Of a DNA stretch of 64,000 nucleotides, positions 22,688 to 58,596 are shown piece after piece. A program made the position numbers and the translations under genes. Within the stretch, counting starts at the first letter, position 1. Every line of letters starts with the position of its first letter. This DNA is from Filosporella fistucella (Eukaryota > Ascomycota > Leotiomycetes > Helotiales). Where the stretch lies: contig JAQJZZ010000005.1 of NCBI GenBank assembly GCA_030077755.1, forward strand, positions 2,108,001-2,172,000, read 5' to 3'. Below the pieces are notes generated by a model. That model saw nothing but the letters and a program-made list of their open reading frames with translations. It ran no database searches and was not told the DNA's origin.

Positions 22688-23102
22688 CTGCGTGTTCGCT
22701 CACCTGCACATCTGTTTGTTGTGCATGTTTGATCCTCCGCATATGATGGGGCTACCTTGTCTGACCATTTCAAGTCAATGAAATACGTCCATAGTGCTAG
22801 CATGGGATTTTTCGCACATGAATGAAACTTGGAATCACTCAGATGAGAGGTTCATACAAGAGAATTCTCGCGCGCTGGGCTTCATGCATGTCTCAAAAAT
22901 TGGAATAGTTTGATATCCTCAAACAGAATACTGCAGTTGAAACAAACAATGCTTCCCAACAAAGTTTCCAGATTATACTACTGCTGCTAGCAGAAGTGGT
23001 CAGCGATTTAGCAAGCCATAAGATCGTGTGACCAAACGGCTGGGAGAGATATTCAATCAACTTTGACGGCAGTGATCCTCTTCTTTCTGAGTTAAGTTGC
23101 AA
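22688..23102. promoter_or_regulatory. Shared head-to-head promoter region of viperin and kinase genes
   Basis: About 0.4-0.5 kb separates the two divergent starts (22687 or 22588 on the minus strand; 23103 on the plus strand). Any common regulation would lie here. I do not recognise a particular factor site. Confidence 0.4.
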
Positions 23103-23827
23103 ATGGTCGAGAAACCAAGTTTCATTTTTGTGTTAGGTATAAATCTGAAGCCTCTTTGGGACAGACCACCATTCCAAGCCATACTAACTACCATAAAGGT
23201 CCACCAGCTCCCGGTAAGGGAACCTTGTGTAAGTTGCTTGCAGAAAAATTCAATGACAAGATTTTCCAACTCTCTGCTGGAGATTACCCTCGACATCTCA
23301 TCCAAAAAAAATATTTGGCACACCAGGCTGACATCGTGGATTCTGTACAATCTGGAGGCACTCGGGAAATTGTCACATGGGAGGTCAATGTGCCACTTTT
23401 AATGAACAAGATCAAAGAGGAGATGCAAAGTGGGAAATTTATCTTCTTGTTGGATGGATTTCCAAGGGACTTGGATTACGACAAGAGGTTCAAAGGAGCT
23501 ACAGAGGCTGAATTTGAGGCAAGCTGTCTCGAGTCAGGATGGTCTATAATTCTGATGAGAAGACAATTGACGATGCCGGATCTTATTATCTCCATATCTT
23601 GTCTTAAGAAGTTGGCAAAAGCAAGGTATCTGACTCGTAAGCGAGGAGATGACAATGAGGATTTGTTCGAAAAGCGGTATCGGGACTATGAGCAACGAGA
23701 TTACATGGTTGTGGGCTTGTTTAAGGACAAATTGATTACTCCAAGTCATCTTGTGCAGATCATCCGTTGGTGCATCGTTCTTGCAGCTAAAATTTTGCTT
23801 ACTCGATATAAACCCACCAGGAACTAA
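23103..23827 (+). pseudogene. UMP/CMP-kinase-like gene, core disturbed
   Basis: Exon 1 (23103-23136) encodes MVEKPSFIFVLG and joins over a 62-bp intron (GTATAA, branch CTAAC, AAAG) to exon 2 from 23199. The joined P-loop reads GPPAPGKGTLCKLLAEKF. It continues with the NMP-binding part (LSAGDYPRHLIQKKYLAHQ), IFLLDGFPRDLDYDKRF, and RKRGDDNEDLFEKRYRDYEQ near the LID. These are adenylate/UMP-CMP kinase family motifs: phosphate transfer from ATP to a nucleoside monophosphate. Between about 23530 and 23630 the open frame is unlike the family, while VYNSDEKTIDD, which fits the expected strand, lies in another frame (23542-23573). The C-terminus is also atypical. The frame is open to 23827, so a shortened product is possible, but loss of function is more likely. 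It would supply nucleotides to viperin. Confidence 0.65.
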
Positions 23828-29591: not shown

Positions 29592-30800
29592 GTTGACTTC
29601 GCAACGAATCATGTGCAGAGCCTTCCCGATTCTAAATTGCCAAATTCCGGAGATGAACCTCAAGTCCAATGGACACCTCTTTATACGTGGTGTTCCCTGC
29701 GGAATGAAATTCCCTCATGTCCAAATAGTGCAATCGTCGTGATCACTGGAGATGATGCACGTCATATAGTGCATCGTCTTACTGGCTTTTATTTCGTCGA
29801 CGGGGAGGGGTTCAGACGATACCAAAGGCTCAGCGACTTTCCACTTTGGATCTTTGTGGACTTATTCTTTCTATTCACAGACTGGAACGGCTTGTGGGCT
29901 TTGACTAGAACCCATATGAATCAACTGAGAAGTGAAGTTTACGGCGAGGCAGTTGGCAAGCCTATTCTAGAGCAGACAAGAGCACTGCACAAGTACATGG
30001 AGGTCATCATACAGAGGAAAGAGTGTCTTGGAGTTCATTTGGAGTCTGTGAACTTATTTGTCTCCGGACTAATAGGATTTTGTGAGCAGGGGAAGAACTT
30101 GAGGGAAGTATCCCAACCACAACCGCCGCCCATTCCACACTTAGACGGAGCCAAGCAGCTCGTAACTCGATTGAAGAAACTTGAAGCTCAATTGAAACAT
30201 CACCAGGCTAGATCTGAGACTATTGTCAGATCAATGGAGAATCTTCTCAGCTTGGTATTTTCATCATATCATCATGTAGCTGAACGCTGACACCAATACC
30301 AGGCATTCAACACTGCAACAGTTTCTCAATCACTGCAAGTCAAAAAACTGAACTATCTAGCTTTGTTGTTTCTACCGCTTAGCTATGTGGCAGTAAGATC
30401 ACAAGGCAACTGGCATTCAGTTTCTGACTCAATTTGATAGACTATTTTTGGTATGACGACTATGACTATCCAGCCCCAATGGTACCCGGTGTACGCTTTT
30501 CCCATCTTGATCGCCACAGTGCTACTCGCTGCTTTTGTTGGCAAAATATTCACCTGGTGGGAGAACTTCCTTCGACGACGACCTATTATAGCTAGACGAA
30601 GACAGCCTAAAGATATTGAGCTCAATAGCATGGCCAGACAAGGTGTTGATATTAAGCTTAGTAGCATGGCCAGAAAAGGTGTTGATGATGAACTTAATAG
30701 CGTGGCCGGGCGGCGTGTTCGGGGTTCGCCGGTTGAGGTACGGCCCTCCACCATCTCAGAACAACAATATATGAGAAGGGATATCTCAGTCGCGACATAG
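29592..30800 (+). CDS. CorA-like membrane protein, N-terminus unresolved
   Basis: Three well-supported exons are 29592 (acceptor CCCTAG)-30254, 30303-30392 and 30441-30800. An upstream exon (about 29272-29538, with SADVNSVVRKGIGRDLIARA) can be joined through a weak GTTTGT donor, but no start Met was found, so the 5' end is open. The protein has a long soluble part with coiled-coil character (AKQLVTRLKKLEAQLKHHQ), then FNTATVSQSLQVKKLNYLAL, a first membrane helix LALLFLPLSYVATIFGM, where the last three residues resemble the GMN signature of CorA magnesium channels, and a second helix YAFPILIATVLLAAFVG. The Asn of GMN is not conserved (GMT). This is the CorA-like layout common in fungal genomes; transport function is unproven. 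The tail holds a 12-residue tandem repeat. Confidence 0.7.
30612..30719 (+). repeat. 36-bp tandem repeat, three units, in the CorA-like coding tail
   Basis: Three in-frame units of 36 bp encode DIELNSMARQGV, DIKLSSMARKGV and DDELNSVAGRRV. The first two are nearly identical and the third is diverged. It lies in the cytosolic C-terminal tail after the second membrane helix. Confidence 0.85.
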
Positions 30801-37635: not shown

Positions 37636-39784
<2,149 letters not shown>

Positions 39785-40728
39785 TTAATAAGGCAAAAGT
39801 GTCCACTCCCCCTGATACACCACCAATACTGCCCAAACTCCCACAAACCCCCACAACAGGTACGGAAAACCAGTATCAAACGCATTGATACTTGATCGGA
39901 CGGGTTGTATTTCGGACGACCTCTCAGTCGGATCTGGGAGGGACGAAGAGGGTGTGAGGAGTGGTCGCATGCCATGTCCTCCATACAAGCCCCGAGCAAT
40001 CCCTCTACCAACATGTGGGAAGACTAGTTGGTACACTTTCACGTAGCTTTCTCGGGAAAGCGCCGTGTTGCTTGGGATGGCAGAGTTGTGGTCGTATTTT
40101 CGGATTTGTGAGAATGGGACTTCGACGACACGATCAGTGACCAGATAGGTCTCTTTGACGAACTTTCCATCCGATAGGTAGAGTATGGGTCGTCCTGCTC
40201 TTTCCAAATCCTGATAGAGCTTTTTGATAAAATAGGGGCTGTTGACGCCGTAGAAGAGAGGGTTGTCTATGACGAGAGAGCGAGGTGGTACATCGTTGAT
40301 TGGATTGACTTTCGCTTTTGGAGAAGTTGAGACGATAGGGTGGAAAGCATACATCGCCCACTTCGACAAAGGTGTGTCATCGATAGAGGTAGCCTATGAT
40401 CTATACTTAGTAAATTTAACGAAGGTTCGGGGAAAGCACATACCATGAGACATCGCACAGCAAGATTCTCTTCGCCATGGGCGCTGAAAGGTCGTACGAC
40501 AGTATCCAAAACGAGCAAAGGGTGACCATGAAGCCTTTCTGGAAGAGTAGAGCGGTCAACACCATGAACGCCTACTCTATAGCATTGGACTGGGTTGTAT
40601 TTTGCGGTATGCTTCGCCTCAAGCCGAACGAACATGCCATTGAGAACCATATCTGGAGTTGGTGGATCTGGAGTCAACCTACCAGATCTTGATCCAGCTG
40701 GAGAATAGTTGATAGCTGAGGAGCTCAT
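39785..40728 (-). CDS. Paralogue A of the two-module cluster family, with C-terminal membrane segment
   Basis: Two exons, 40728-40444 and 40393-39785, flank a 50-bp phase-0 intron (GTATGT...ATAG) and give 297 residues. The N-module holds GMFVRLEAK (31-39) and HGHPLLVLD (67-75), ending CLM at the intron. The C-module starts ATSIDDTPLSKW and has PPRSLVIDNP (131-140), AGRPILYLSDGKFVKETYL (161-179) and VPFSQIRKYD (187-196). The last 27 residues contain a hydrophobic stretch, YLLWGFVGVWAVLVVYQ, that could anchor the protein in a membrane; other members lack it. No signal peptide is seen. The same intron position and motif order recur in five further genes up to 58.6 kb. I do not recognise the family; the function is unknown. 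Confidence 0.75.
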
Positions 40729-40901
40729 GACGGATAGCCTCTAGACAAGCAAAGGGGGATGAGATAGATAACTGAAGGTAAAAGCCAGCAAAGCTGCCAG
40801 CGTAGGTCGGCGCTTGAGGGGGAAAATGCAACAGTTGGGAAGGTCAACGACTCGATCTTGGGAAGAGCAGTCGCGTGAAAAAGTGTGAGGCTCAAAAGAT
40901 A

Positions 40902-41545
40902 GGGTTCTTGAAGTACAAGTAGAAGAGTTGTAGAATCCGCGAAGCAAGTCTTCTGTGTTGCGAGTAATCTTGATGTGTGCCGATTCGGGCTCTTGAAGTG
41001 CAGGTAGAGGAGGTGTAAAGCCAGCGATCTAGGTCCCCTCTGTTGCGTTCTGCCGTGTTGTGCTGTGCTTTGAGGACTCAATAGAACTCAAGAAGCTCTT
41101 GGAGTGCAAGTGGAAGAGGTGTAGAAGCGGTGAAACAAGTGTTCAGTGTTGTGTCCTGAACGATGTTGAAGTGTTTGCGCGGTCAATCTTATCAAGAGGA
41201 GACACGCGGAGGAAGTTTGACGACTCAAAAAGACTCAAGAAGGTCTTAAAGTGCAATCGGAAGAGGTTTGAAACCAGTAAAGCAGGTCTTCGCTGTTGTG
41301 ACGTGAGAGTGGTTGAAGTGTTTGTGTTGTCGAGTTGGTTGCCGTGAGTATCACAATATTATCAAGTCTTTTCTTCCAGTTTCGTGATGGTATCTGTCCA
41401 GGATTGCGAAATCAGAAGAAGTATGAGTTTTTGTCCATGAATTCAAGTAGAAAAGGTATGAAGGCAGTGAAGAAAGGTTTGTGGGTTGTGTCGCGAGAGA
41501 TGATGAAGTGTTTGCGTTATCGAGTTGGTTGCCGCAAGTATCAAG
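40902..41545 (-). repeat. Degenerate tandem repeat in the 5' flank of paralogue A
   Basis: Five imperfect units start near 40902, 40990, 41097, 41242 and 41437. Each contains a variant of CTTGAAGTGCAAGTAGAAG followed by AGGTGTAGAA, then a GTGTTGTG-like block. Units 3-5 also share GTTGAAGTGTTTGCG, and units 4-5 share TCGAGTTGGTTGCCG. Unit spacing ranges from about 90 to 195 bp. It lies 170-820 bp upstream of the paralogue A start. Read on the minus strand the units are CA/CT-rich, resembling a fungal 5' leader. Confidence 0.65.
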
Positions 41546-42939
41546 TTATTGTTGAGTCTTCTCCTCCGCTTCAGTGCTATTGCTAGTTCAAAAGGGATTT
41601 ATATTTGCTCTGGGAATCAAAGCGGACTCTTCTATGATTTCGGAGCTAAAGCTAGCAGCCATTATGCCTCGTACCTAATTTATCTGCATCGTGGAAGTGT
41701 CGACAATAGTATCAGTCTATTATTCAGTCGCCTTTTCCGCTTCAGTGCAAGTTTCTGTCCCAAACTGAGTGATCTACGCTTCCAAAACTACCTTGGACCT
41801 ATGAATTCTCAAAATTATTGGAAGTTTTGCTTTGGGGATTATATTTACGCCAAGTATCTGTTCTCGAACCGTCTTGGCACTCCCGGAATCCGAACGGAAC
41901 AAATTTGGATGCGTATCTACGTATCAGAGACATATTGGAGGGTTTTCAAATCGACATCTTAATCCATACCATCAAACCTTCCTCCAGTATTACACTCGTG
42001 AAACAGGTGAGCTATGTTGGAACGGCTTCGAAGTTAAGCCAAATTCTTCACTTCCATTTGGCAGAAGACTAATATTTATAGTCATAGGCCTCGTGTGTTT
42101 CAATACCGTCAAATACTCATATCATCGAAACAGCGTCTTCAAAGTTGCCGGTAGGGCTACACCTACGTGCTGTGATCCCGGACTACCTTCCACTTACATT
42201 TCGATCCCTATACTGTCGAATTATGGTATCGCCCGAGCCTTGAAGCAAGTACCACTACGTAGAACACGCATAATACTAGGCTCCGATTACTTCTCATCCT
42301 AATTTCATCCATGCTGGCGATTAACGACTGTGATCGGTGAACCTCGGTGCCAGCTCTGAATTTGCGAGGGGGGACTTCGCAGTTGTGCTTCGAATGCGGG
42401 AAGGACAGGCTTGACAAACACATCAGCATTGATACCACTATGTTTTCAAGAGTTGGAGACAATAGGAAGAAGGCTTTGGTCTGACGGTTTGCTGAAATAT
42501 CGGGAAGTGCTACTACACACTCTTCTGCTACCCTGATACCCTCTCTGACAATTTGCAGGATGCAAGGCTCGGTATGGGTGGCAAAGATGGGCAGGTTGGA
42601 TTGTCATTGATGCGCCTTCACCACAGAGCCTTTGCGTCAAAATTATTTGCAGCATATCCAGCTCCAGGACCTCCTAGGTCATTCAAATTGTCTAAGTAAA
42701 TACATGAAATCTTATGTGTACATTTAGCAAAGCTTGAACAGCTGAATACAAGAATTTTGCTTGAGTTGGTGAAGAAGAAAATCTGTTGGCATAATCAAAT
42801 GGCATCAATCAGATTAAATGGTGACAAAAAAGCGTCAAGTGATGAACGGAAGGGCCTTCCAGTTCCAAGGTCCGCGGCAGGATCCACCAAACAATATCCT
42901 CAATACCTCCTCGAAAAAGTGACCGCCAGAATGGATCGT
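41546..42939. other. Gene-free stretch between repeats and LPMO gene
   Basis: A frame at 41832-42302 is open for 156 codons but shows no motif, and its composition is unlike the neighbours. I see no other feature. Confidence 0.35.
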
Positions 42940-44038
42940 TTACTGCTGCTCCTGACGCAGGGAATTGAGGAACGCTGCACGGCCACGAGGCTGGACGGAA
43001 GAGGGACCCTCGCAGGCATCGGTATCCTCATCATTGTTGCCGGAAGAGGTTTCGGTGGCTATTGGCGCACTGATAGATGTGCTGCTGCTCGCTGGCGCTG
43101 TGGTGCTGACAGCATTTACAACAGTCGCCATTGAGCTGTTACTGCCACTTCCTCCACTCCAAACAGCTGGACCTGGCATTGGGTACTCCTTGTATCCACC
43201 ATATATGCTGAAGTTGAAGGACGGATCGTCTTTCTTGTAGCCACCTGGGAATTTGATTGTTGGGCCTGGGGTACCGGAACCTCCTCCAGTGACAGTAACC
43301 TGGGCACAGCTGAAAAAGATATTAATATGGAGTAAGATTGTGGAGGGAATGTTTTCTTACGCCATATAGAACTCTGCTTGCCCAGTATGAGCACCGTGAA
43401 CACCGATGTGCTCGGCACGGATAAGGTAGTCACCATCTAAGTGTCGAAGTCAGTCCCCAAATTCTTCATGAACATCTTGTCGCTAAAGGAAGCCCCCTGG
43501 TTCAGGAGGTAGAGATGGCACCAAGTGTGATGATATACATACTGGGAACATCTTTTGGAATTGTAAACTCCACGTTGTCCTTGTCCCACGTACACCAAGC
43601 ATCCGTAGTAAAATCCTTAGTCTTGTCACAAACCCCAGTCTCAAATATCTTAAACCAATCCCCAGCTCCTTCATCGGCTTGTGCAGTAGTGGCCGACTTT
43701 GACATGTACACCAGAGCTGGTCCCGGATGCTGCATGGTAGCACCAACTGCCAACTTGAAAGCTAGCTTTGAGCCAGCAGCAACAGACGCAGTTGATGTTT
43801 TCACGGCAGATTCGAAAGCTCCTTTGTTGCAACGCATCTCAGGCCCGTCCGGGGTAGTATCATCCCGGGTGTTGACCCATTTCGTAGGGTTGTACTTTGC
43901 TGTTCTGGTGTTACTGCGAATGAATTCATTTGACTTGGATGCCACTCCATCATTGATTAAGACGTCGAAGAAGTAATGGGCTTGGACGACAGGAAGAATA
44001 CTTCCCAGGACCGCTGTAGAAAGAGTTGTGAGCTTCAT
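42940..44038 (-). CDS. Secreted lytic polysaccharide monooxygenase, AA9
   Basis: Three exons (44038-43543, 43436-43361, 43309-42940) join in frame to 313 residues. The signal peptide MKLTTLSTAVLGSILPVVQA precedes HYFFDVLINDG, so cleavage exposes the N-terminal copper-binding histidine of the histidine brace. Other AA9 marks are CNKGAF, TMQHPGPALVYMSK (second copper His), GDWFKIFETG, YLIRAEHIGVHGAHTGQAEF, YMACAQVTVTGGGSGTPGP and IKFPGGYKKDDPSFNFSIYG. The enzyme uses copper and peroxide or oxygen to cleave cellulose or hemicellulose oxidatively. A Ser/Thr-rich tail of about 70 residues follows the domain; there is no CBM1. Introns of 51 and 106 bp are typical. Intact. Its place between paralogues A and B seems to be coincidental. 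Confidence 0.93.
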
Positions 44039-46895
44039 GGTGAGGCTGAGTTACTTGTAGAAGAGAAACAAACGAGTGGTGCTAGCCCGTAAATGGATGG
44101 CCAAAATGATCCAAAAAAGAAAAGACTGCTAGAAACGTAAATGAATGTCTTGATTGAGATAATTCGAGAAAGGTATGTTTTGACATCGGGTTCTTATTGA
44201 ACATTTCGGAGTAACGACGGGATTCAAAATCGCCCAGCCCAAGCCAGTAAATGCTCCTGCAATTTGGAGAATCCTCAGCAGATCTCTGATAAAGATCAAA
44301 AGGCTTGGTCATGTTGTCTCATCGTCATCCGTTCTCGTCTGAATATTGCCAACTTGGCTGGCACAGTACCCACCTTGGAAGGATTGAAATGGCGTGTCCC
44401 TTAGTTTTTGACTTGATATCAGAGAAAGTGTTGGCAGGGTGCAAGGGTTGTACTACGTTCTAGATCATGTTTTCCCAATCGAGTTTTTCCACGCTCTCCT
44501 TTTCGGTCCCTTCGCTTACTCTTTTCTTGTTCCAGATTGAGTAACGCCCCGCATTTTAAATCTCTTGATCATTAGCAGATCACTGCTATATCTAGTTTCC
44601 CTCAGTCTACCCCGCCATATATCCCTGAGATTGATTTTGACAGGTCTAGCTAGTCGCACGGGAAGGAACAAGGGCTACTGCCTCCTCGAATCCCTCGTCC
44701 TTGACCTAATAGTTGTTAGATAAATTACCAAGGCAAGGGAAAGAATACAGTGATTAGACTCAGTTAAATACCCTTGCTTTAGGCTTCCGGTGATGTTCAA
44801 CACGCTAGGAACAAAGAAGGAGCGAAAGTTTCACGATACGCCGATAAGCCTTCCCATGTGTAGCTCTCTCCTATCTTCAGGATAACCGAGTTGCTAGGTC
44901 TGCTCAAGTAATTAATTTTCCTGTGTAGCTTGTTTCGGAATGCCTAGTTAGGAAGATACCACTCTGACATGATTCTTAGTCATCTCAAAACGCACTATAC
45001 AATTACTGAAAGCAACGAAATCCAAAACGCCAAGATGATGGAGCACGTTGGCATCTCCACTTTCGGACATGTATCGAATACAAAGCATCTAGCCAGCCTC
45101 TCCTCAATTTTTGAGTACTGTTGAAGATTGGCTTCTGTAAATGCTGATCCTATTGCCACACCGAATGCTAGTTCAAACCCTTCTTAAAATTGATTTTTGA
45201 AGAGAGTTCCAAAGAGAGTGTATTTCATGAATATAGGGTAACACTTCAAGATCAATCAGTTTGCAACACTCACAAATTTGTGTCATTCATATCTATGCAT
45301 CTGAGCTCCATTCCCATCCTCCGCTGTATCTATGAATAGTCCGCACTGGGCGGTTAATCTAGAAGAATCAAAGGACCGTGTCATTACTCAAAAGCTCTGG
45401 CTAAACGTAGACTGGCACCCTGCTCTTCTGATTGCTACGAGTTTTTGGAATAGTTGCAACTTCAGATAACAAAGCTTTGAGATTGACATGTGTGAAAATA
45501 TTCTTGGCAAAAGTCTTGAGCTCCGAACTCTCTAGAACACAACTTTCACATTAAACTTCCTGACCTAGCATTTGATAGAGTGCTTCGAGAGTCATCCTAG
45601 AACAAATTCGGGATAATTAACCTGCGACCCCTGACGAAATACTGCTTTTGCTGAGATGAGCTGCCCAGAGACTTTGAGTATTGGAGCATCGGTCGCTTGG
45701 GTCATTCTTGGCTTTTGCTAGATATTTGTCTTATGAAATGGAAAATAAGGTGAAGCTAGATCTTAATCTATCTTTCTTTAATGATTCGCGTGTAGTTCAT
45801 CTCTTCGCCCGTATTCATTTCTTCTCCATCGGTCCGTTTCACCTCGTCTTTAATTGTCTGTTTCAAGACCAAGCCACCAAAGCTCGAACCATCAGCCCTA
45901 CTTACGTACTTATCCCGAAGCGAGACCCAATCTCATGCTTGCGAAATACTCATTTACCTGATACTGCCATATAAGCTTGAAGCATAAACTTAATCGACAA
46001 GAAACATTTTGTCGCCAACATCTCGGCTTGTTGCCCCGCAAGAGGGTGATTCGATTGAACTGCCATGATCTACTTCTCACCTTTGCACTTACCTTCTCGA
46101 CTTCAAGCTTAATTTATCGAATGCGTGGTTCTTTGGGGATTTTGCAGCTGTCACCCAGTTATTGGAAATTCAGTTCGCTATCGTCGCCGCTATCATTTCC
46201 ACCCCTGCTTTTCGAGTCTCATCCGTTCACTATCCTCGAAGGCCAGAAGGAAAAATTTAGTGATTATCAGTGCCTTATGTGGAGATCCATATGTCAAACT
46301 TTTGTCATTGCGACAGGCTGAAAAGCTATTGTCTCTTGAAGCTGTATGCATTTGAATATGCGGGAGGCTCGCTGTCGCACTTTTGTGGACACTGATTCTT
46401 GAAGACTAACACTTGAGTGGTTCAATAGCTATTCAAGAAAGTCAAAAGCAGCAAAAACAAATCTAGAAGACCAATGGAGCTGGTTGCTGCTCGAACTTGG
46501 CTCAAGGAAGGAAGGAAGGAAGGAAGGAAAAACTGACAACATTTGTTTCTTTACCTTTTGAATCGCAGCCACTTGCACACAATCCAGCTTTTCAGTATAT
46601 TTTTCATTTTTGAATAAGCATGCTAGTGTTTCCGTTCATATCCTAAACTGAGTATATCGAAGCCTCCTTGTAAGCAGCCGCTTCCTCCCATACGCTACCA
46701 CCTTAGCCAGAAACTACTAACCAACACTTCGATATCCAAAGGTTATTCACACCGCAGTCATCTTTGCCATCATCGGAGCCCAGATCTCTCACTGCCGCCA
46801 CTCATTTTCATCGTCACCACTTCTCTCCACTCTCATTATGAGATGTCATTATGGGTTGTATGCTGTGCAGAAAGTTCTCACAAGCCCAGTGCAAG
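44039..46895. other. Gene-poor 2.9-kb stretch
   Basis: The LPMO promoter lies at the left end and the 3' end of paralogue B at the right. Only short patternless frames are present. It includes a small AAGG microsatellite at 46504-46530. Confidence 0.4.
46504..46530. repeat. (AAGG)n microsatellite
   Basis: About six perfect units of AAGG followed by a short A run. Confidence 0.95.
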
Positions 46896-48700
46896 TTACC
46901 ACGGGCCATCTCGAGGATGATTATGATCCTGATTTATCTTTGGTGGGATATCGCTCTCGTCATCATCGTCGCAAGATTCTTGATCCCGCTTACCTAAGAC
47001 TCTCGGAGGAGGTGGAAGTGGTTGTCCTCGACCTTGATCTCGTCCACGAGAGAAGCCATATCCAAAGTGGCCACGACGCATTGCCAATGGAGCCCGTGGC
47101 GGATCAATTCTGCTACTGTGATCTGAGGGCACTGGGGTCACAGGTGTTAAGCCAACTCCTCGGCCATTGGGTACTCTTGACCCCATGGTCCGATGTCCTG
47201 ATTGAGCTCGTGTGCTTGGTCTCAAAGCTGTAGACCGCTGATTTGCTTCCACCCACGACCTTGGGCCTACAGGCAGAGTAAGAGTTGAAGTGGGAGCTTG
47301 TGGTCGTTGCTGAGCCACCAATGTTGGTGCAGGATTTGAGTTTGGCTGGATTTGAGGAACTTGGGGTTCAATGGGGTGTCCAGACAATCTTGGGTGGTGG
47401 AAGTTTGTATGGGAAGTTTGACGACCATGAGAAGGACCAGAGGCTGGGTGTAGTACTGCTGGAGATGGCATCATGTTCTGCGCGGGAACATTAGTGGACA
47501 TCCCAAGCGGAGGGAAATCGAGTTGGGAAGATCTAGGCGGAGGATTGGCGTATCGTGGTGGAGGCGAGCCATAGGTGGTGGGGGAAGAGCCATAGCCTCT
47601 TGAAGAGTGCGGACTTCCCCCTCTCGATGTGTAGGAGATTCCTCGGGGCGATGGAGAACCACCAAATCCTCGACCTCGGCCTCCAGATCCTCCTCTATGA
47701 TGTCCTCCTCTCCCAGTGTTTTGGCCATGATTACTACTAGGTGAGGACTGCTCTTGAGCAATGATCTGAGCTGCCCGAATCCTCGCGGTAGCGTTCACAT
47801 CGGGGAGCCATCTTACACCAGGCGCTGGGTTTCTGATCATACCACGCTCTAGCTTGATACGGATCTTCTCCATTTCAATATCCGATCGTGAACGCAGCTC
47901 TCCCCAGATCTGGCTGGACACACCTTCCTCGATTTTTATGACATGTTTATCGTAGTATTCACCGGCCACTTCTTTGGTGCAACCAAATTGTCGCCTGTAA
48001 ATCTCGATATAACTGTCTCGATTTACACAGGTTTCTTTTGGGATATCAGAACCCGTGGACACATCGTACACTCTCAACTGCTCTAGACGAAGTGGAATCC
48101 ATCGATCGAAGATCAGGTATGTTTCCTTAGCCAAATGTCCTCTGGCAAGATAAATGACGGGTCGGTTGCCTGCCTCGAGCAAATTGTAAGTGGCTTCGCG
48201 CCATTGGTCGTGATATCGACAAGAGGGTTGGTGAATGACCCAAGAACGGGGAGGTACCGAATCAACCGGCTTATAAACAATCGGAGCGTTTGCCGACATT
48301 TTCCTGTACCACTCCATGAGATTCATCCCGTTCACGGATGTGGCCTACACAAGCCTAGTCAATATTTCGTGGCTTCGGATGAACTTTCATGTAGATAACT
48401 TACCATCAAGCAGTATACAGTACTCTCTTGGTGTCCGGTCTCATCGTTCTGTTTTCCCTCGATCTTCATGACCAGAAGAGGATGTCCATGAAGACTCTCC
48501 TCAAGTATTCCACCCTGCTGCGAATTTGGTCCATTGGTAAATCGGACGGGAACCTTTTTGGCCGTTGTCTTAGACTCAAGTCGCACGAATTGTCCAATGC
48601 TGATCTCTTCGGCACTTGGTGGTGGTGGGGTTTTCTTTCCAGCGTGGTTAGGTGCAGAGGTAGTGGGAGTGAAAGTCACAGGAGTGGTGTTGGAAGCCAT
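46896..48700 (-). CDS. Paralogue B of the two-module cluster family, with long RGG-rich tail
   Basis: Two exons, 48700-48404 and 48344-46896, flank a 59-bp phase-0 intron (GTAAGT...GTAG) and give 581 residues. The start MASNTTPVTFTPTTSA is preferred over an open upstream extension that reads like a CA-rich leader. The N-module has IGQFVRLESKTTAKK and ESLHGHPLLVMK, ending YCLM at the intron. The C-module has ATSVNGMNLMEWYRK, PPRSWVIHQP, NRPVIYLARGHLAKETYLIF and LRLEQLRVYD. Beyond residue 220 comes a unique region, then from about 310 an RG/RGG-rich disordered tail (GRGGHHRGGSGGRGRGFGG) and Pro-rich stretches. RGG tails commonly bind RNA or drive condensates, which hints at a nucleic-acid-linked role (inference). 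It is the largest member and looks intact. Confidence 0.78.
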
Positions 48701-48748
48701 CTTGTTTGTATTGGACAATCGAGGGAGCAAAGCGGAAGAGAAAGTGCT

Positions 48749-48816
48749 GTAGCTGTGAAGCTGTGTAAGGGAGTTTGAAGAGGTTGTATGTGGAAAAGTG
48801 TAGCTGTGAAGCTGTG
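48749..48816 (-). repeat. 17-bp direct repeat in the 5' leader of paralogue B
   Basis: GTAGCTGTGAAGCTGTG occurs exactly at 48749-48765 and 48800-48816, 51 bp apart. It lies 49-116 bp upstream of the ATG. On the coding strand it is part of a CA-rich leader containing ACAACCTCTTCAAACTCC, similar to ACACCTCTTCCACTTGC in the repeats upstream of paralogue A. Confidence 0.85.
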
Positions 48817-49700
48817 AAAAGGGGTGTAGATGGAGGAAGTTGTAAGTTGTTGTTGTCTTGTGTTGTGTTGATGTTGTGTTTGGTTTTGAAAGATCGGAGG
48901 TGTGACATGTGGGATAATATTCAAGTCTCTCAAGATTTCGAGAGTCCGGTAAATACACTTAAGAATTCGCGGTCAGGTGAACTAGAGGGGAGTCGGGGGC
49001 TAGCTCTAGAACGAACGAGAGTCAAGCTTAACGTTGAAACAGAAGTAGATGCTGCGAGCAGCGCCGCAGCGGCTTACCTCGTTTCCGCAAAATCCTCAAG
49101 TCGTACATCATTCGTATCGCAATTAATCCCACAGAGACATGAAAGATTTTGAGTCCTCCTATCAGATCCATACCTAGCAGTAAGACATATGTCCGTCCAC
49201 TTGAGCCTGCACACCCATCTTGCTGGTAGCTTTGGAATATTCGTCTTATATGTAAAAAATTCGGATAACATCCACAACTTGAAACACTTACAGCTTCCTG
49301 ATTCACAAAAATAGGTACACTCTACATAATACCATAGAAAGATTTATACAAGTCAATTAATGCTTTGACTCCCTTGCGGAACATGAATGCTATTCTACGA
49401 AGGCTCGGGAGAATGGAGTCTTACATATGCATTCTGATGATCAGTTTGTTAGCAATTCCATGATTCCAAACACTTGCTGTGTGATGTCTCAAGGGTTTGA
49501 AAATCTCTCTGTGATTATTGGAGACGCTGCAATCATTTGATGCTACAAACATATGCAAGCTGAACCAGAGCCTATTCAAAGCCAAGGGGCATTATTCTAT
49601 CTGATTCATGAAACAAGACATGCTTGCCTCACGCTTCATGACAATGTTACAAACACAGCAATAGAGAAACTCGACAACGAGTCTAACTCTTTGTCATCTT

Positions 49701-49890
49701 TCACGAGTTCGAGGCGAACATATCACACGGCGAACTTGTGATAATGTGTTAGAGATATCACCACAAGTGAAATTTTCAAGTATCACAAAAGCTTGAACAC
49801 CTGATGATTTACTCTTTATTAGTTCTCACAAGTTCGTCGTAACCATAGAGAGCGACGAACTTTTGATAATGTGTTAGTAATATGACAAAA
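49701..49890. repeat. Diverged direct duplication, period 125 bp
   Basis: TCACGAGTTC (49701) and TCACAAGTTC (49826) begin two copies that share a block like CGAACTTGTGATAATGTG followed by TTAG (near 49732 and 49857). The rest is diverged. It lies in the upstream region of paralogue C. Confidence 0.6.
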
Positions 49891-50285
49891 CTGGATCTCT
49901 CAGGGATTAAAAGATTTGAGCAGGTAATGAATTACGCTCTGAGACTATCTTCTCACTATTTTATACAGCCTCCCAATATAATTTGACATCTGAAGCATGT
50001 CTCCTTTACCCAAGTTCGAATCTACACATACCAAAACTACGTAGCTCAACTACGCTAGCGTATTTTCCTTTGTTGCAAGCCGGCCGCCTTGGGTCGGAGA
50101 ACGTGAAGTTATATCTAAGCCTCACTTATCTCGATAAGGGAGATCTTGTTCCGATAGTCTCGATAGAGGGCCGCGAAATCGAAGTCAACAAATAATTACT
50201 TGCTGACACAAAAAGCTGCGCATCCTTCTCATCGCGATATTATATTTGTGCTCTTTCTCCAGCTATCTTTTTTGAAAGAAAGAAA

Positions 50286-51747
50286 ATGTCCTCGGCGTCG
50301 AGATATTCAACCTCGAGCAGGTCTGATTATACTCCTCGTCTGGGCATGGCTTTGAGCAAAACTTCAGGATTCTCCCATCAAGGTACGAGCTTCATCCGCC
50401 TGATTCCCGTAAGTATAGTGGGCTCTTGATCTTAATCATGGATTTAGATCGCAATAGAGCATTGCCTCGCTCATCCTCCGAAAACCGTGCAACAATGGTC
50501 ACTCATGCGGTTGGCGGGTTGTCCACAACGATGGATGCTATCCGCGTTTCCTCAATTGAAGCCCCCTTCAAAAAGGAGTCGCAAAAGCCCCCTTCAGCAA
50601 GAAATGCCTCTAAGATTCGTCACAAACAACATCGAGAATCAAGAGATCATGGTAGCCGCTACAGTCCTTACGCGAGACCCTTCAGCGCACCACCAGCTAC
50701 TCACGGGACCCCCAGGATACAAAATTACCATATCTCAAAGGTTCAAGCATCAGGAAATATTTCATCGAACGATTTCAACGGACGAAATCGCGTTCCTCAA
50801 GCGAATAAGATCCCAGGAAGCAAGGAACATGTCATTATGAGCGTTAAAGATGTTGTCGTTGGCACTACTTACAGACTTGAGGCGCGTAAGAAACCCTGGA
50901 TGGTCTATGAGAGATGGGCTCCGTTGTGGGATGTTTCGGAGGAGATCTCTCATGGTCCTCATGGACACGCTTTCTTCGTCTTGAAAGTCATTCCACCAAT
51001 CGCTGGCAAATCTGATGAGCACATGTGTATTTGCACCGTGGTAAGATTTCATTTCATCCCAATCAGCATCTTGCCGTCTAGGAAACTAATGGACAACCAC
51101 CACAGGCAACATCATTCAGAGACTTGTCGCTTCATCAATGGGAAGATGAGCACAAAAATCGGTCAAATCGCAAAGATGTCCACTATTCCATCCCAATCCT
51201 TCCAAAAGATCCAAACCCAAAAGATATTAGGCTTGTCAATCGAATTGAAGATGAGTTGAAGCGTCTAGGTTATCCCATCCTTTACCTCGCAGGCGGCGCC
51301 TTCGCCAAGCAAACATACATCAGTCTCCAAAGAGTTACCGACATTCCACTTTCGAAGCTGAGAATGTTTGATGAGAAATCTTCAATCAAGCATGGAACAC
51401 AATTGGCATTTGATGGATACAAACACCTTTTGTCAGTTCTGAAGATCCAGGGTGATCCAGAGCTTCTATACGGACCACGACTTAAGACTATCGGTAACGT
51501 GGAGTACGACGGCGAGACCAAGATTTCGAAGGCAGAGGAGTGCCACACAGAAATGAAGCTTCTACACTGCGCTATTCCCAACCTGAGTTGTTTCGGAGAT
51601 ATTGAGTGGGCTGGAGATGGTCACAAATACTACGAAAGAGGCGGAGACACAGCATCGAAAGAACAGGAGACTTCTGCTGACTTGGGGGTTGTTGTCAAGA
51701 AGGGAATGATCTTTGGCGATCTGGAGTTTGCTGATTACACTTTGTAA
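50286..51747 (+). CDS. Paralogue C of the two-module cluster family, with long N-terminal extension
   Basis: Three exons: 50286-50382, 50448-51040 and 51106-51747. The frames join to 443 residues. The first intron (GTACGA...TTAG, 65 bp) lies in an extra basic Ser/Arg-rich N-terminal extension of about 180 residues (MSSASRYSTSRSDYTPRLG; SARNASKIRHKQHRESRDHG). The second intron (51041-51105) is at the family position, after MCICTV and before ATSFRDLSLHQWEDEH. The N-module shows VGTTYRLEARKKP and HGPHGHAFFVLK. The C-module shows LGYPILYLAGGAFAKQTYI and IPLSKLRMFDEKSS. A C-terminal stretch (ERGGDTASKEQETSADLGV) follows. No membrane span or signal peptide is seen. Intact; function unknown. Confidence 0.76.
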
Positions 51748-53867
51748 TATTGACAGGTGGATCGAGTTTGTCCGCACGACATCAGGGAGAGGAAATCTTA
51801 TGATTGCGGATTGTTATACATGGTCATGCCCCGAAGGGACACCTGGGTAATTCAAGAGATGTACATATTCACAGCAGATAGAGCCATACAACTTGCTTGT
51901 ACGTCGCTTGGTTTCTATGGCAAAAACAATGTCTTTGCTTCAGAGCCAATGACTGTAGCAGTTCCTTGCACGTAAATTGATCTAAATACCCAGTATCTCC
52001 TCAACGTTGCCTCTTCGAAAATTTAGATCCGCATTCAGATAGTCTTCATTGCTTCTGCCGGTTTTGAGCATCCTTAATGATACAGAGACTGTTGCCTGCG
52101 TGACTACTTAGGCTTCAACAAAAATATACATACATCTTGAATGTGAAGCCAGTCTCAGCACAAAGCGGACGGAAGCAGCAGAGATAAATTGGCCATCAGC
52201 CTTTTGGCTTCCTCTTGAGAAAGCTGCTCAAAATTTTCATTCTGGAGGAAGGAACGAGGCTATCTTCTTGCCTTTTCGAACAGCAACGCCCTATAACGAG
52301 TCAAGAGCCATGGGAAGAAAAAGCTTGAGCACAATCAAAATTAGTACTGTACTTCCCGAACTTCACACTGGAGCCCTGTTGGATCTCTTCTCTGACTGCA
52401 TCGCTAGATAGCCGAGCAGTTTACTCACCAGGGCTAGAGCTTTGCGAAACTCTTCAGCCTGTCGTGAATCTCTCCACCTACTCCGTTCACATGTCGATTC
52501 TACTACCACCCATTTTGAGCTGCATTCACAAACAACTCGACTCGTCGAAAGAGCTTCACATGCGCGAAAGCATTCGAGTAAGGCCTTGTGCCTGTCGGCC
52601 TGTACACCACTGGCAATCCAGGCTCCGCAAGGGCCAAGGTTTCCAACGCAGTAAGTTTGTGATGGCTCCAATAGAAAATATATTATTAACCCTGCTTTAG
52701 AATGATTCTGTGGCGGGGGGCGAGAATATGAGCTTAACACCCCATTGTGGGTTGTTCTGGGCAACGCTGTAGGTTCTTGACTGGGCTACAATATTTTGGT
52801 GCCTATTCAGTTTGATACGCTGTTTTCCATACGATTTTCTTTCGATAATTGCTGATTCATTGCCCGAACTAGATTCGAACACATCAAGTATGCCAAATGA
52901 AAAACATAAGCAGCCAGGGTCTTTGTACCTGTTCATTTCGGTGGAGGGAGTCGACTCCAACTTCACAATACAGAGGTGTCACCAAATACAGATGGAGACA
53001 AAACATGAGACTGGGAGAAGGTGTGGTACGAGAAGTTATGGATGGTAGAACTGGTTTGGGATACTTGGACAAGAAACACTCGAGCCTTGTGCTGCTGCTC
53101 TCGCGAGCAGAGCTCACCTGCCGGCATGAATTCCAAGTCCATGCTGGCAGATCTCTTTAAAGGCGCGAGTTTGGAAGAAGAGCCAATGAGAGATTCTCAA
53201 GGAGTCTGATGATGCTTTAGATTTATGCTGGATAGGGACGTAGAGTTTATAGGGTAATGATTGGGACTGGCTTGCTTCTTCCAACTTCCCAACTTCTTTG
53301 CTTCTCTCAAACCATGCCCAAGAATGACTTCACATATTCCCGGTTATTTCATTTCTTCTCCCATGCGAAGTACGAGAATACGCTTTGCGTATTAATCACC
53401 GAGTCGAGTACCTGTTTCCTTTTCATTTTGCGCGATCCTTTCTGCAGAATTTGACCGTACATGTCACATAACACACGGTACTGAAGAATGAAACAGGGAC
53501 ATCTTTTGCACGCCTCTCAAGTGAAGACGAGAAATCAAAGTTCATCAGCAGTACTCTGCGCAATGGCTCTGATGTATTGCCCTTGCAGCTGTGTAGACAA
53601 TAGGTAAAACAAATAGTGAGAATAGTCTAACAGCGGTAACGACAATATGTTCAAAATCGTCAACAAGTCGAAAAAGCAGAATAGTCTATTGGCACGATTA
53701 GAAGGGGTATTCACTGCATTGACCGTCGCCGTGGCCATCACCATCGTCAATAGACTCAAAAACCTTCTTTCGAAGCAGCTTTCTTCTTCTTTTCTCAAGC
53801 ACATCAAATTGCACAAGAGTACGGAAGAACCACATTACATATAAAATCGACCAGCAGAGCAAGAAAA
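51748..53867. other. Gene-poor 2.1-kb stretch between paralogues C and D
   Basis: Open frames here are short on both strands and none shows the family motifs or a known domain. I looked for a decayed extra copy and did not find one. Confidence 0.4.
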
Positions 53868-54648
53868 ATGGCTTCCGAAAAGCAATCATACCATACACCG
53901 AAGAAGCAAGAGAAGCCTACCTTCAAAGGTAGCCGGGCAGAATTTCCGCCCGATATGAAGGAGATCCTACCAGGTCGGTGCTTCCGGCTTGAGGCAAGGC
54001 GTGCCACAAACGCCATCATGGAGCTGCCGAGCCCAGATTTTAATAAGAAGCAGCAGAACTCCAAGACTGCCCATGCACATCCAGTCTTCGCGCTGGATTT
54101 GGTAAAGCAACCTGCCCAAGATCCATATATCTTCGCGGTGGAGGTGAGTTTCTCTGTGTTCAGACTTTCAGAGCAGAATCTAACTCTCGATCTAGGTTGG
54201 TACTTTTACCAATACCTCACTGGCAGAATGGGAGCAGAAGAGACTGACGGACAAAAAGCTCGAGGGCACGGTCCCAATTTGGAACGCGGGAGAGAGTGGC
54301 CCTGAGGTCACGAAGATCCAGAATCTGCTTCGAGCAGAAGGAAGACTCATCGTTTGCTTGTCCCATGGTAACATGGGTAAGCGTACCTACATTATTTTAT
54401 CCCGGCTGTTGGTAATCCCAGTCAAGAACCTGCGTGTGTACGACGAATTGTCCGTGGTAACCAGTGATGCTCGCATCACACCCACTTGTTTCAACGAGCT
54501 TCGGGAGTTTTTTAAGCTGTCGACACCATCTCTACCACCACAAGCACCAGCAGCAGATCTTCCGACCCATCCACTTCGAACCACAAACAGCTATACTGAG
54601 ATCCTCCAAGAGGAGAAGAAAGATGGGGAGGTTGCCCGCAGCAAGTGA
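53868..54648 (+). CDS. Paralogue D of the two-module cluster family
   Basis: Two exons, 53868-54143 and 54196-54648, flank a 52-bp phase-0 intron (GTGAGT...CTAG) at the family position and give 242 residues. The start is MASEKQSYHTPKKQEKPTF. The N-module has LPGRCFRLEARR and AHAHPVFALDL, ending IFAVE at the intron. The C-module begins VGTFTNTSLAEWEQKRL and has EGRLIVCLSHGNMGKRTYII and IPVKNLRVYDELS. The tail is short (STPSLPPQAPAADLP, then TTNSYTEILQEEKKDGEVAR). It is the smallest and one of the most diverged members: HGHP has become HAHP and the YLxxG core reads CLSHG. The open frame and exact splice sites suggest it is still expressed. Function unknown. Confidence 0.75.
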
Positions 54649-55592
54649 GAGACTTGTAGCAGGCAATTTTTGGGTTCGGAGTGGACCGTACTTCGGCAAC
54701 TATCATACTATACGATGCCAAGTCTGCGAATACAGCTGCGATATCCGGAGAAGGGGAAGAGAAGAAGAATCTCTTTTGTTGTCTATGTAGATTATGGAGT
54801 TTAATGCGTGGGAAGAATGCCCGAGACTGAAAAGAGCTTTGATACTTGATATTTGTCCAATTGCACCTACTCGATACTTCAGATGCTCAAAATACCCTTA
54901 AAAATATGTACAATTGATCAAATCTCAACTTAAAGCTCTTTGCCATTCATCATTGCAGACAAAACACACTTTATTGTTGCGGTGCTTGATGAGAAAGTCT
55001 GGATTGAGCATGTGGCACTTCGTTACTAGCTTTCAATGTGATTGCGGTACTCGATAAGCATGTTTTGAAGGTACGATAGCCGATAAGAAACTTTAGTATT
55101 TTGAGGATGCGGCACTACCACCTCCCTATCGCCCTCGCTTAATTTCAAAGTACCGGAGATATACCTTTCATCTTCAAATTCACCGTCATAGGCTAGTAAA
55201 TCGTGAATTGCCCACTCGGAACAATTCGCGTTCCGCAGCATACTGAGATAATCAGACCCTTCTGTCCTTGACATTTTTGCTTCCAAAAACAACTTGAGCC
55301 AATTCGGGCAACACCGCATCATTTCTCAAAGAACTTCATCGCAGTCTTCGCAAAGCAACTCTTCAACAACCATTGAGTTGCCCTTAATCTTTTTGAGAAT
55401 AGCAGGAAGACTTCAATCCCTTGCCTTCATCTTTCTTGCTCCCGTCAGGATCTTAGTCCTCCAATTTGCCGTCGATCGTCCACTTTCAGAGCAATCTTCC
55501 CAACGACCTTCCTCGACAAAACATCCTCGAGTCATCGATCTCCATCCCACACTTCGACAAAATACACCGTTCCTTCGTCACATAATTTCGAG
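54649..55592. other. Intergenic stretch between paralogues D and E
   Basis: A minus-strand frame of 98 codons (55026-55322; MMRCCPNWLKLFLEAKMSR) is possible as a small gene head-to-head with paralogue E, but has no motif I recognise. Confidence 0.35.
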
Positions 55593-56401
55593 ATGTCTTC
55601 TGGAAGACCAAACGCCATCCAAATCGTCACTGCAGGTCAAACAACCAAAGAGTCGATTGTGCCCGGAATGGTGGCACGCATCGACGCGAGAAAGAATGGC
55701 GGGTTTCAGGAGAAGGAGCCGTTCGGACAGAAGCCTGATATCGAAAAAAGTGCTCACGGGAACTCAAATGTGGTGATGAAGACCATTGGGGGCAAAAACG
55801 GTTTAGAAGTGGTCCTGGCAACGCAAGTTTGATCCAAAAATCCTTTTACACAGCGTCTTCCATTCTGACTTAATCCCAACAGACCTCGACTTTCAATTGG
55901 ATGCCTGCGCAAAAATGGGTCAAACATCGAGTGTCAAGCCAGCACGAATGTTGCCCAGGCTCATGGATCATTGAGCATCCTTCCACAACGTTGAGCCAAG
56001 CACAACAAGCAGCGGTCAATAAAGCATTGGATGAGGAGAGCAATCCAATGTTATTCCCATCGCAAGGAGCATTCTACCTCCAGTCATACTTGTTGCCATA
56101 CGCGCCGGTCAAGGTCCCGATTGAGGCAGTATACCTTTACGATAAAAACCCGACAAGAGTTGTGGGTGGGACACGGATTGGTAGAGAGAGACACTTGAAG
56201 ATACTCAAGAGGCTGCAGCTCAGCGATGATGCCGAAGAGTCGCACGACAGCTACCCGGACCCCGAGCTTGAATACATCCCGCCTCATCTGCAGGCACACG
56301 TCGATGCTGTGGCCAATGCTACTGCTGCTCGCTTGGCGGTAGCCCAGACAATCGTGGCAACTCCAATTATTGCTGCAACTACAGCTCAAAGTCCAACTTA
56401 G
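55593..56401 (+). CDS. Paralogue E of the two-module cluster family, ending at an early in-frame TAG
   Basis: Two exons, 55593-55826 and 55883-56401, flank a 56-bp phase-0 intron (GTTTGA...ACAG) at the family position and give 250 residues. The start is MSSGRPNAIQIVTAGQTT. The N-module has VPGMVARIDARKNG and SAHGNSNVVMK, ending VLATQ. The C-module has TSTFNWMPAQKWVKHR, PGSWIIEHPST, NPMLFPSQGAFYLQSYLLP and VPIEAVYLYDKN. After an Ala-rich stretch the frame stops at TAG 56399-56401, yet stays open in the same frame for another 141 codons to 56827 (NPELPAALLIPPAQDSTSQK; FLQKKKIARRSEAGKTANFG). So either the present stop shortens an older protein of about 392 residues, or the tail is read by some other means. 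It is the most diverged member (HGHP is HGNS). Confidence 0.68.
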
Positions 56402-57648
56402 ATTGCAGCAAATCCCGAGCTCCCAGCTGCGCTGCTCATTCCCCCAGCACAAGACAGTACAAGCCAAAAGCCCAAGTGGCAGGATATCGCTGTAATTGGT
56501 GGTGTGAACCATATTCTTACGGCTCAACCTGTCATCCCACTGAACTTCCTCCAGAAGAAGAAGATCGCCAGACGCAGTGAGGCGGGTAAGACCGCAAATT
56601 TTGGTGATAAGGCAGCTCTAGCTACTACACCAGTAGCGGAGCAGCAGCAGCCAGAAGTCGACGGGCAGAGCATAACTGCAGACAACAGAAACAGATACCA
56701 TGACTTCACCAGAGGTCGACAACACCATGGCATCAGACAATTCTACAACAGAAACAGGGTCTGGTGCTTGGATTTTCTTGTTACTGAGCTCTTGATCGAA
56801 AACCGAGGCGTATCTTCGTGGAATTGAGGCTGCATTCGAGCTGGAGATGGAGCCGGGAGTGGAGGGCTCAGGTCAGATAGATTCATGTAGCTACATGAAT
56901 CTATATTTCTACTCTAATAGATGATCTTGAATAGATAGAGCCCTGTAACTCAATAAATCTTCTTTCCACCATAGACTTCTTTCTGGAATCTTTGTGATCT
57001 GGCCCTTGAAAGCGTGCTTCTATTTCCGTAACTTGTGCTTATTTGCTTCGAACCCAGAATGTGAAGAAGAGTATTTTGCCAGATGGATCCGTGATCCGCT
57101 GCCCCTTATCTTTATGGGCTAGACCAGTAAATTTGGCAATTATCTGGTTTGCTTCATCGAATTCACCGCTCCAGACTAGCGGCAAATGTTGTTGGACTCG
57201 AGATCTGGATAACCCAATCAGGTAATTTTGTAACTCTGAACTCGAGGCATTGGTTCAAAACCAGCACCGCGTTCTATCATGACAACCACTTCCAACGACC
57301 ACTTTCAATCTTCCACAACACAACTTTCCAGCAAAATTCGTTCCCAACAGCATTGAAATTGCAATCCTTCTGATCATAATTCCATTTGACGATCTTCGTT
57401 ACGACGATACCCAATCCTTCTAATCACAATTCCTTTCGACGATCTTCGTTACGACGATACCCACTTCCACTCTTCGCGATTCCTCTTGTCGATCTTTCTT
57501 CCTTACGACAGTACTCAATTCCAATCATCATGCCTCACCAGTTGAGAACGTCTCTACCCCTCTCTCCTCTCCAGCCACCACCTCCTCTTCCGCCGCTCTT
57601 CAACAAAGCTCTTTATCTTCTGCCATTCAGGCGCCCTCTGCTCCCACT
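56402..57648. other. Downstream open extension of paralogue E and leader of paralogue F
   Basis: 56402-56827 continues the frame of paralogue E after its TAG. From about 56828 no coding signal is seen until paralogue F; the right part is a CT/CA-rich leader with a tandem repeat (57365-57464). Confidence 0.5.
57365..57464 (+). repeat. 50-bp tandem duplication in the 5' leader of paralogue F
   Basis: Two adjacent units, 57365-57414 and 57415-57464, differ at about five positions and share the block GACGATCTTCGTTACGACGA. A weaker third trace (TTGTCGATCTTTCTTCC, then TTACGACAGTAC) follows near 57487. They lie 185-285 bp upstream of the ATG. Confidence 0.9.
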
Positions 57649-58596
57649 ATGGTGAGCAAATCACCAACAGTTGACGAGCTTCGCCATGGAATGGTCGTCC
57701 GTCTGGACAGACGTAAAGAACCTGTCGAAACTCAGAATGCCACCGCCAGCACCGGCACCACTCAAGCAACTAACGGCAATCATGGCAAGAATGGCAAGAA
57801 GCCCAGCAAGAAGCAGCTGATGAAGGCTCACCAGGCATTGATGAAGATTATTATGAAGAAGGAGCCGGTGGAGAGCGAAGGCCCGACCTTCAAAGTCTGG
57901 GAGCGAGTCAAGAAGAGCGCACATGGGCACCCAAATATTGTGGTGGATTGGGAGCACACCAATGATGGTGTAGTCGTTTACCTTGCCGGCGTAAGTGTTC
58001 CTTCAAATACAAGCAACAACATATGCTGACTGCAATGACTTTAGTGCTCCGGTTTCAAGGATATGACCTGGAAGGATTGGCCCGAAAGACGAGGCGAGCA
58101 CCCACGCGCACTGGGTTCCATCCCGGTATGGTTTCCAGAGGGAGAACATGATCCTGTCAGCGATGGCAGAATTAACCAGATAGTCGCCGCGGAGAACTTG
58201 TTTATGGTTCGACTCCAACAAGGATATTGGGCGAAGCAGACATTCCTTATGCCAAACTTTCGCGTCCGATCCCCCATAAACAAGGTGTTGCTGTACAACG
58301 AGGAGTCAGACGTTGGAATCGGCTCTAGGGTCGACTGGGAGAGCTATATTAGAATTGCCAATGGCCTAGGCTTTGCAGGCGTTCCAAAAGAGCAGTACAA
58401 CGACGAGTACCTTCACGCGCCATACAACAGCGCACAAGAAAAGACCCAGGCCCAAGCTCAAGCTAAGGCTCTGGCTGAGGCTCAGGTCAAGGCTGAAGCG
58501 AAGACTCAAGCTGAGGCTCATGCTGCGGCAACTGCGGCTCTGGCAGCACCAGCTGGAGTCGTTAGTTATGCCCAAGCCATCAAGAAGGGGTTGTAG
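57649..58596 (+). CDS. Paralogue F of the two-module cluster family, with Ala/Gln-rich tail
   Basis: Two exons, 57649-57990 and 58045-58596, flank a 54-bp phase-0 intron (GTAAGT...TTAG) at the family position and give 297 residues. The start is MVSKSPTVDELRHG. The N-module has GMVVRLDRRKEP, a Lys/Asn/Gly-rich insert (NGNHGKNGKKPSKKQL) and SAHGHPNIVVD, ending VVYLAG. The C-module has CSGFKDMTWKDWPERR, IPVWFPEGEHDP, LFMVRLQQGYWAKQTFLMP and INKVLLYNEESD. The C-terminus is an Ala/Gln/Lys repeat-like tail (AQAQAKALAEAQVKAEAKTQ) ending YAQAIKKGL, probably helical. Upstream Met codons in the leader are out of frame. Intact; function unknown. Confidence 0.75.

Follow-up and report, generated by a model that had tools for sequence, protein, structure and literature searches.

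Gene structure of the six-gene cluster

The window analyzed in this study is a 64,000-nt stretch of the genome of the ascomycete Filosporella fistucella (contig C4, JAQJZZ010000005.1, positions 2108001-2172000; the assembly measures 45.8 Mb in 19 contigs). Six-frame reading of its 38-60 kb portion demonstrated a cluster of six genes, designated g1 to g6, that spans 18.8 kb, with g1 and g2 on the minus strand and g3 to g6 on the plus strand. These genes constitute a genuine, strongly diverged, unnamed family at one locus, ordinary in kind.

All six genes consist of two coding exons joined by GT...AG splice sites, which were chosen by eye from the genomic sequence alone, and the spliced frames are open through both exons in every case. 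On the minus strand, g1 (39785..40728; 297 aa) has exon 1 at 40444-40728, a 50-nt intron at 40394-40443, and exon 2 at 39785-40393, and g2 (46896..48700; 581 aa) has exon 1 at 48404-48700, a 59-nt intron at 48345-48403, and exon 2 at 46896-48344. On the plus strand, g3 (50286..51747; 414 aa counted from 50438) has its domain exon at 50438-51040, a 65-nt intron at 51041-51105, and exon 2 at 51106-51747. It is followed by g4 (53868..54648; 242 aa; exons 53868-54143 and 54196-54648, 52-nt intron 54144-54195), g5 (55593..56401; 250 aa; exons 55593-55826 and 55883-56401, 56-nt intron 55827-55882), and g6 (57649..58596; 297 aa; exons 57649-57990 and 58045-58596, 54-nt intron 57991-58044).

The introns are all in phase 0, measure 50-65 nt, and fall in one alignment column in all six members, in an alignment built without intron information. 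The donor of the g5 intron, GTTTGA, is unusual and weak-looking, and the motifs of this gene are much changed. The start of g3 may be either 50286 or 50438. The ATG at 50286 is out of frame with the domain exon, so a further intron would be needed, while the homologous exon from the in-frame ATG at 50438 to 51040 comprises 201 codons and gives phase 0. Thus, the six genes lie where the original prediction had placed them and share a two-part coding plan with a common phase-0 intron, with the start of g3 in doubt.

Common origin of the six genes

Seven exon queries were searched against the whole assembly. Significant matches connected g1 with g2 (E value, 1.3e-15) and g3 (5.9e-10), g3 with g4 (1.6e-5), and g5 with g6 (5.8e-5). 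No single query recovered all five other members: the g3 query found no g5 match, and the g6 query found neither g1 nor g2.

Leave-one-out profiles were built from five members at a time and searched against 2050 six-frame segments of at least 20 aa from the window. The held-out sixth member ranked right behind the five in 6/6 runs for exon 1 and in 6/6 runs for exon 2. The E values ranged from 2.5e-4 to 1.6e-9 for exon 1 (g1, 2.3e-8; g2, 4.4e-9; g3, 2.5e-4; g4, 1.6e-6; g5, 1.6e-6; g6, 1.6e-9) and from 9e-10 to 2.8e-20 for exon 2 (g1, 2.8e-20; g2, 2.3e-15; g3, 2.4e-15; g4, 2.9e-12; g5, 8.7e-10; g6, 9e-10), and unrelated segments never scored better than an E value of 0.41. Together with the genome searches, these results demonstrate that the six genes are true paralogues of common origin at one locus, as had been proposed.

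Conserved motifs and divergence of the copies

Motifs were counted by eye on the six-member alignment. G-x-x-x-R-[LI]-[ED]-x-[RK] is strictly present in all six members. HGHP is strict in three, with the variants HGHA, HAHP, and HGNS in the others; YLxxGxxxK[EQ]TY is likewise strict in three members and [VI]P[LF]xx[LI]Rx[YF]D in two, and the remaining members carry recognizable variants. The first of the four motifs therefore holds as originally described, and the other consensuses had been drawn somewhat too uniformly. Five residues are invariant in the six proteins (G31, R35, H67, W107, and G171 in g1 numbering); the start Met is also invariant, but by construction, as g3 was cut to an internal Met. 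Identity to g1 is 21-36%, in agreement with the low identity between members noted before. Exon 1 of g6 additionally contains a long Lys/Asn/Gly-rich insert ahead of the HGHP strand.

Six-member profiles detected no seventh copy or relic among window segments of at least 20 aa (next E values, 2.3 and 6.8). In the assembly, the seven exon queries returned only cluster members and three stray rows: C9:3350353 (E value, 0.109), C6:423264 (0.767), and C3:1566002 (3.05). The first of these overlaps a long open reading frame (ORF) on the opposite strand, which we take to encode a TruD-type pseudouridine synthase. No relatives of exon 2 were found elsewhere in the genome by this single-sequence search, which is blind to relatives as distant as the most remote members. 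The family is accordingly restricted to one locus as far as relatives of ordinary distance are concerned.

A maximum-likelihood tree joined g1 with g2 (97/97) and left the remaining members without a supported grouping. The tree program warned of long branches meeting (g3 with g4, g5 with g6), and only the g1-g2 grouping was used. The terminal branches measured 1.07-1.91 changes per column, and by these branch lengths there is no recent copy among the six. The copies are thus old or fast-changing, and age and rate are inseparable in these data. The family had been described as expanding and under rapid change. Expansion is not supported, because no copy is recent; the end branches are long, and neither the window nor the single-sequence genome search yielded an extra copy. 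As to rapid change, the divergence is indeed strong, but its rate cannot be separated from its age.

Searches of domain and sequence databases

Pfam returned no credible match at E <= 10 for 10 exon pieces or for the 6 spliced proteins, and PHROG and NCBIfam gave none for any member; in PADLOC, 0/6 members matched at E <= 1. The claim that the proteins carry no recognized domain is therefore upheld. Several low-scoring rows were rejected. FAO_M (0.2) and DUF961 (0.31) were below the Pfam curated cut-offs with one exon piece each and were taken as spurious. Metal_resist (0.043), Integrase_1 (0.12), and IL17R_fnIII_D1 (0.021) also fell below the cut-offs with one piece each, as did Metal_resist (0.09) and Integrase_1 (0.16) with one spliced protein each. 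The NCBIfam row PRK12834 (0.011) concerned 1/6 members only and was not accepted.

A profile search of the PDB gave just two weak rows (E values, 0.27 and 1.2). Searches with two short patterns located 91 stretches in viral contigs and 87 in prokaryote contigs, none of which was a relative. In the protein database, 0/7398 candidates matched at E <= 1, and 0/1053 and 0/346 at E <= 10; the window's own proteins were likewise not returned, which makes this database a poor witness for fungi, and its silence is no evidence for the lineage specificity suggested at first.

Protein termini and predicted cell location

The ends of the proteins differ. The g1 protein has a hydrophobic segment near its C-terminus (residues 269-287), and g6 ends in an Ala/Gln-rich tail. 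The g2 protein has a long, low-complexity, Arg-Gly (RG)-rich tail with an acidic stretch close to its end, and contains 13 RG dipeptides over its whole length. A strongly hydrophobic N-terminus was seen by hydropathy in none of the six proteins, whose 9-residue means near this end peak at 1.62 or less (start of g3 uncertain). The apparent lack of a secretion-like N-terminus, together with the RG-rich tail of g2, suggests that the proteins are intracellular.

Predicted fold and proposed role

Structure models were made for g6 without removal of its intron, for which exon fragments supplied the alignment, and for exon 2 alone. In the low-confidence g6 model, strands were predicted at residues 15-19, 96-104, 107-112, 131-134, 158-161, 187-191, 198-200, and 226-228, and helices at 54-70 (within the g6-only insert), 141-147, 169-181, and 230-239. 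This order of elements is weakly consistent with one alpha/beta domain formed from both exons. The proteins had been described as two-module; this applies to the exons, which are present as a pair in all six genes, rather than to demonstrated folds, and a single domain cut by an intron is the simpler reading.

We propose that one ancestral gene was duplicated locally long ago and gave rise to the six copies. Its two exons would build a single compact alpha/beta domain, in which strands carrying G-x-x-x-R-L-E, HGHPLLVL, and CLMATS would be followed by a helix with the invariant Trp, by ILYL, and by KETYL...VPxxxLRxYD. Unrelated tails would then stand behind the domain, namely the RG-rich tail of g2, the hydrophobic segment of g1, and the Ala/Gln-rich tail of g6. 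The domain may serve as a binding scaffold, for RNA or for a partner protein, rather than as an enzyme, and the copies may have been kept as their differing tails and surfaces provide different partners or different places in the cell. We infer the intracellular location, the single domain, and the binding role alike, and we regard their combination as the most plausible reading, tentatively and short of an even chance.

Several points weigh against this proposal. The models are too poor to establish a fold (g6, mean predicted local distance difference test [pLDDT] 49.7 and predicted template modeling score [pTM] 0.42; exon 2, mean pLDDT 46.2 and pTM 0.37), and the g6 strand at 131-134 runs across residues translated from the intron. 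No known signal peptide served to calibrate the hydropathy test. A catalytic role would suit the invariant His and Arg equally well, and the suggestion of RNA binding comes from the tail of a single protein among the six. Furthermore, exon 1 was sought genome-wide with the g2 query only, which matched just g1, so that copies of this exon elsewhere are poorly excluded.

Repeats and neighboring genes

Direct repeats accompany the cluster. Two overlapping families of degenerate repeats (41069..41576; 73% and 75% identity) lie 341-848 nt upstream of the g1 start, in a stretch (41050-41590) that occurs once in the assembly. A 27-nt repeat in two copies (48748..48825; 89%) lies 48-125 nt upstream of the g2 start, a 76-nt repeat in two copies (49686..49886; 72%) lies between the divergent g2 and g3, and a 50-nt tandem repeat in two copies (57362..57461; 92%) lies 188-287 nt upstream of the g6 start. 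Counting families of at least 26 nt with repeats within 500 nt, the 22 kb from 38 to 60 kb contain five, all upstream of g1 (two), g2, g3, and g6, compared with a single family each in 1-38 kb and 60-64 kb, a contrast of small numbers that was noticed post hoc and has no chance control. The repeats fit a locus prone to local duplication. Outside the cluster, three tandem 36-nt units are found at 30612-30719; this unit length is a multiple of three, and the repeat is possibly coding.

The neighboring genes include an AA9 (lytic polysaccharide monooxygenase) gene between g1 and g2 (43502-44050, minus strand) and a GH53 gene adjoining g1 (37636-38391, minus strand); the domain matches themselves cover 43505-44050 and 37639-38391, respectively. 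The window also has sirohaem-synthesis and Vps62 matches, and an ORF at 23096-23827 (plus strand) matches adenylate kinase (PF00406; E value, 1.1e-15). The short introns and the AA9, GH53, sirohaem-synthesis, and Vps62 matches agree with the gene content of a filamentous ascomycete.

Alternative explanations

The family may instead belong, as a highly divergent branch, to some larger superfamily of small fungal domains; candidates are DUF6590 (PF20233) and an unnamed ascomycete family that we assume to be characterized by HPVVVL ... TS ... SYV ... IPxxxLRxYD. DUF6590 proteins have a G-x-h-F strand, a variable insert, an RRFVVV strand, and a CLxxxTY strand, followed by PI and SRINYxKxYTVE strands, and in an alignment of ten members this order, with the variable insert after the first strand, matched that of our family by eye. 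In both, an intron also adjoins a Cys-Leu strand of similar kind, as read in 5/5 DUF6590 junctions (L039-L043). When the Cys residues are matched, the g1 and g2 introns sit just 4 nt downstream of the DUF6590 position, which speaks mildly for kinship, but the DUF6590 intron is in phase 2, inside the codon after the conserved Cys (5/5), rather than in phase 0, which speaks mildly against it. In contrast to these likenesses, no exon piece or spliced protein obtained a DUF6590 row in Pfam, and an hhalign comparison, low in power with 6 versus 10 sequences, gave a probability of 0.1 and a score of 12.2, against a mean of 12.7 and a maximum of 17.8 for 40 column-shuffled controls. The genome contains 22 pieces matching DUF6590 at E <= 1, 21 of them over the cut-off; none is on C4. 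These pieces are distributed over six contigs (including C12, C14, C3, C9, C15, and C7), whereas our family was found at one locus, and several of the DUF6590 pieces lie close together on C12, C14, C9, and C7. The DUF6590 profile itself matched no PDB chain at E <= 10, and the term DUF6590 was not found in the literature searched. The proteins also presumably resemble PemK/MazF (PF02452) in strand order, with a T-S strand after an R/H-P-hydrophobic one; however, PF02452 had no match in the assembly at E <= 10 (3/14 control genomes matched) and no row for any of the 6 spliced proteins. Kinship with DUF6590 or PemK/MazF is a lead suggested by motif order and not a finding, and we consider membership in such a superfamily possible but somewhat improbable.

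The remaining alternatives concern function, where conflict, self-recognition, or host interaction had been suggested at first. A diverging locus of the allorecognition type, with members that vary from strain to strain, would agree with the low identity between copies and with the direct repeats upstream of 4/6 genes, but the tree shows no recent copies and no member gave a defence, NLR, or HET match in Pfam or PADLOC. With no positive evidence found for conflict or self-recognition, this explanation is unlikely. The cluster adjoins and encloses genes of plant-wall-degrading enzymes (GH53 and AA9), a setting that might point to secreted, effector-like proteins; the N-termini, judged by hydropathy, and the RG-rich g2 tail with its acidic stretch speak against secretion. 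Host interaction has no positive evidence in its favor, and we regard secreted, effector-like proteins as very unlikely. Finally, the altered motifs and weak-looking donor of g5 could indicate decaying relics without function, but the open frames with GT...AG introns in all six genes and the retention of motifs across long branches leave this reading scarcely credible.

Implications of the family

Local clusters of unnamed paralogues are common in filamentous fungi, and the locus resembles such locally duplicated families; it differs from them in that its copies are far apart and not recent. We consider it quite doubtful, though conceivable, that a domain without relatives of known structure, containing one ancient intron, has diversified at this locus into six intracellular binding proteins for recognition or RNA-level conflict. 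Should the family prove to have branched from some known DUF family, the gain would be that of a family definition only. Strongly diverged local clusters without a named domain are places where unrecognized domains hide, and the present family is now delimited by its six genes, their exon borders, and the invariant residues.

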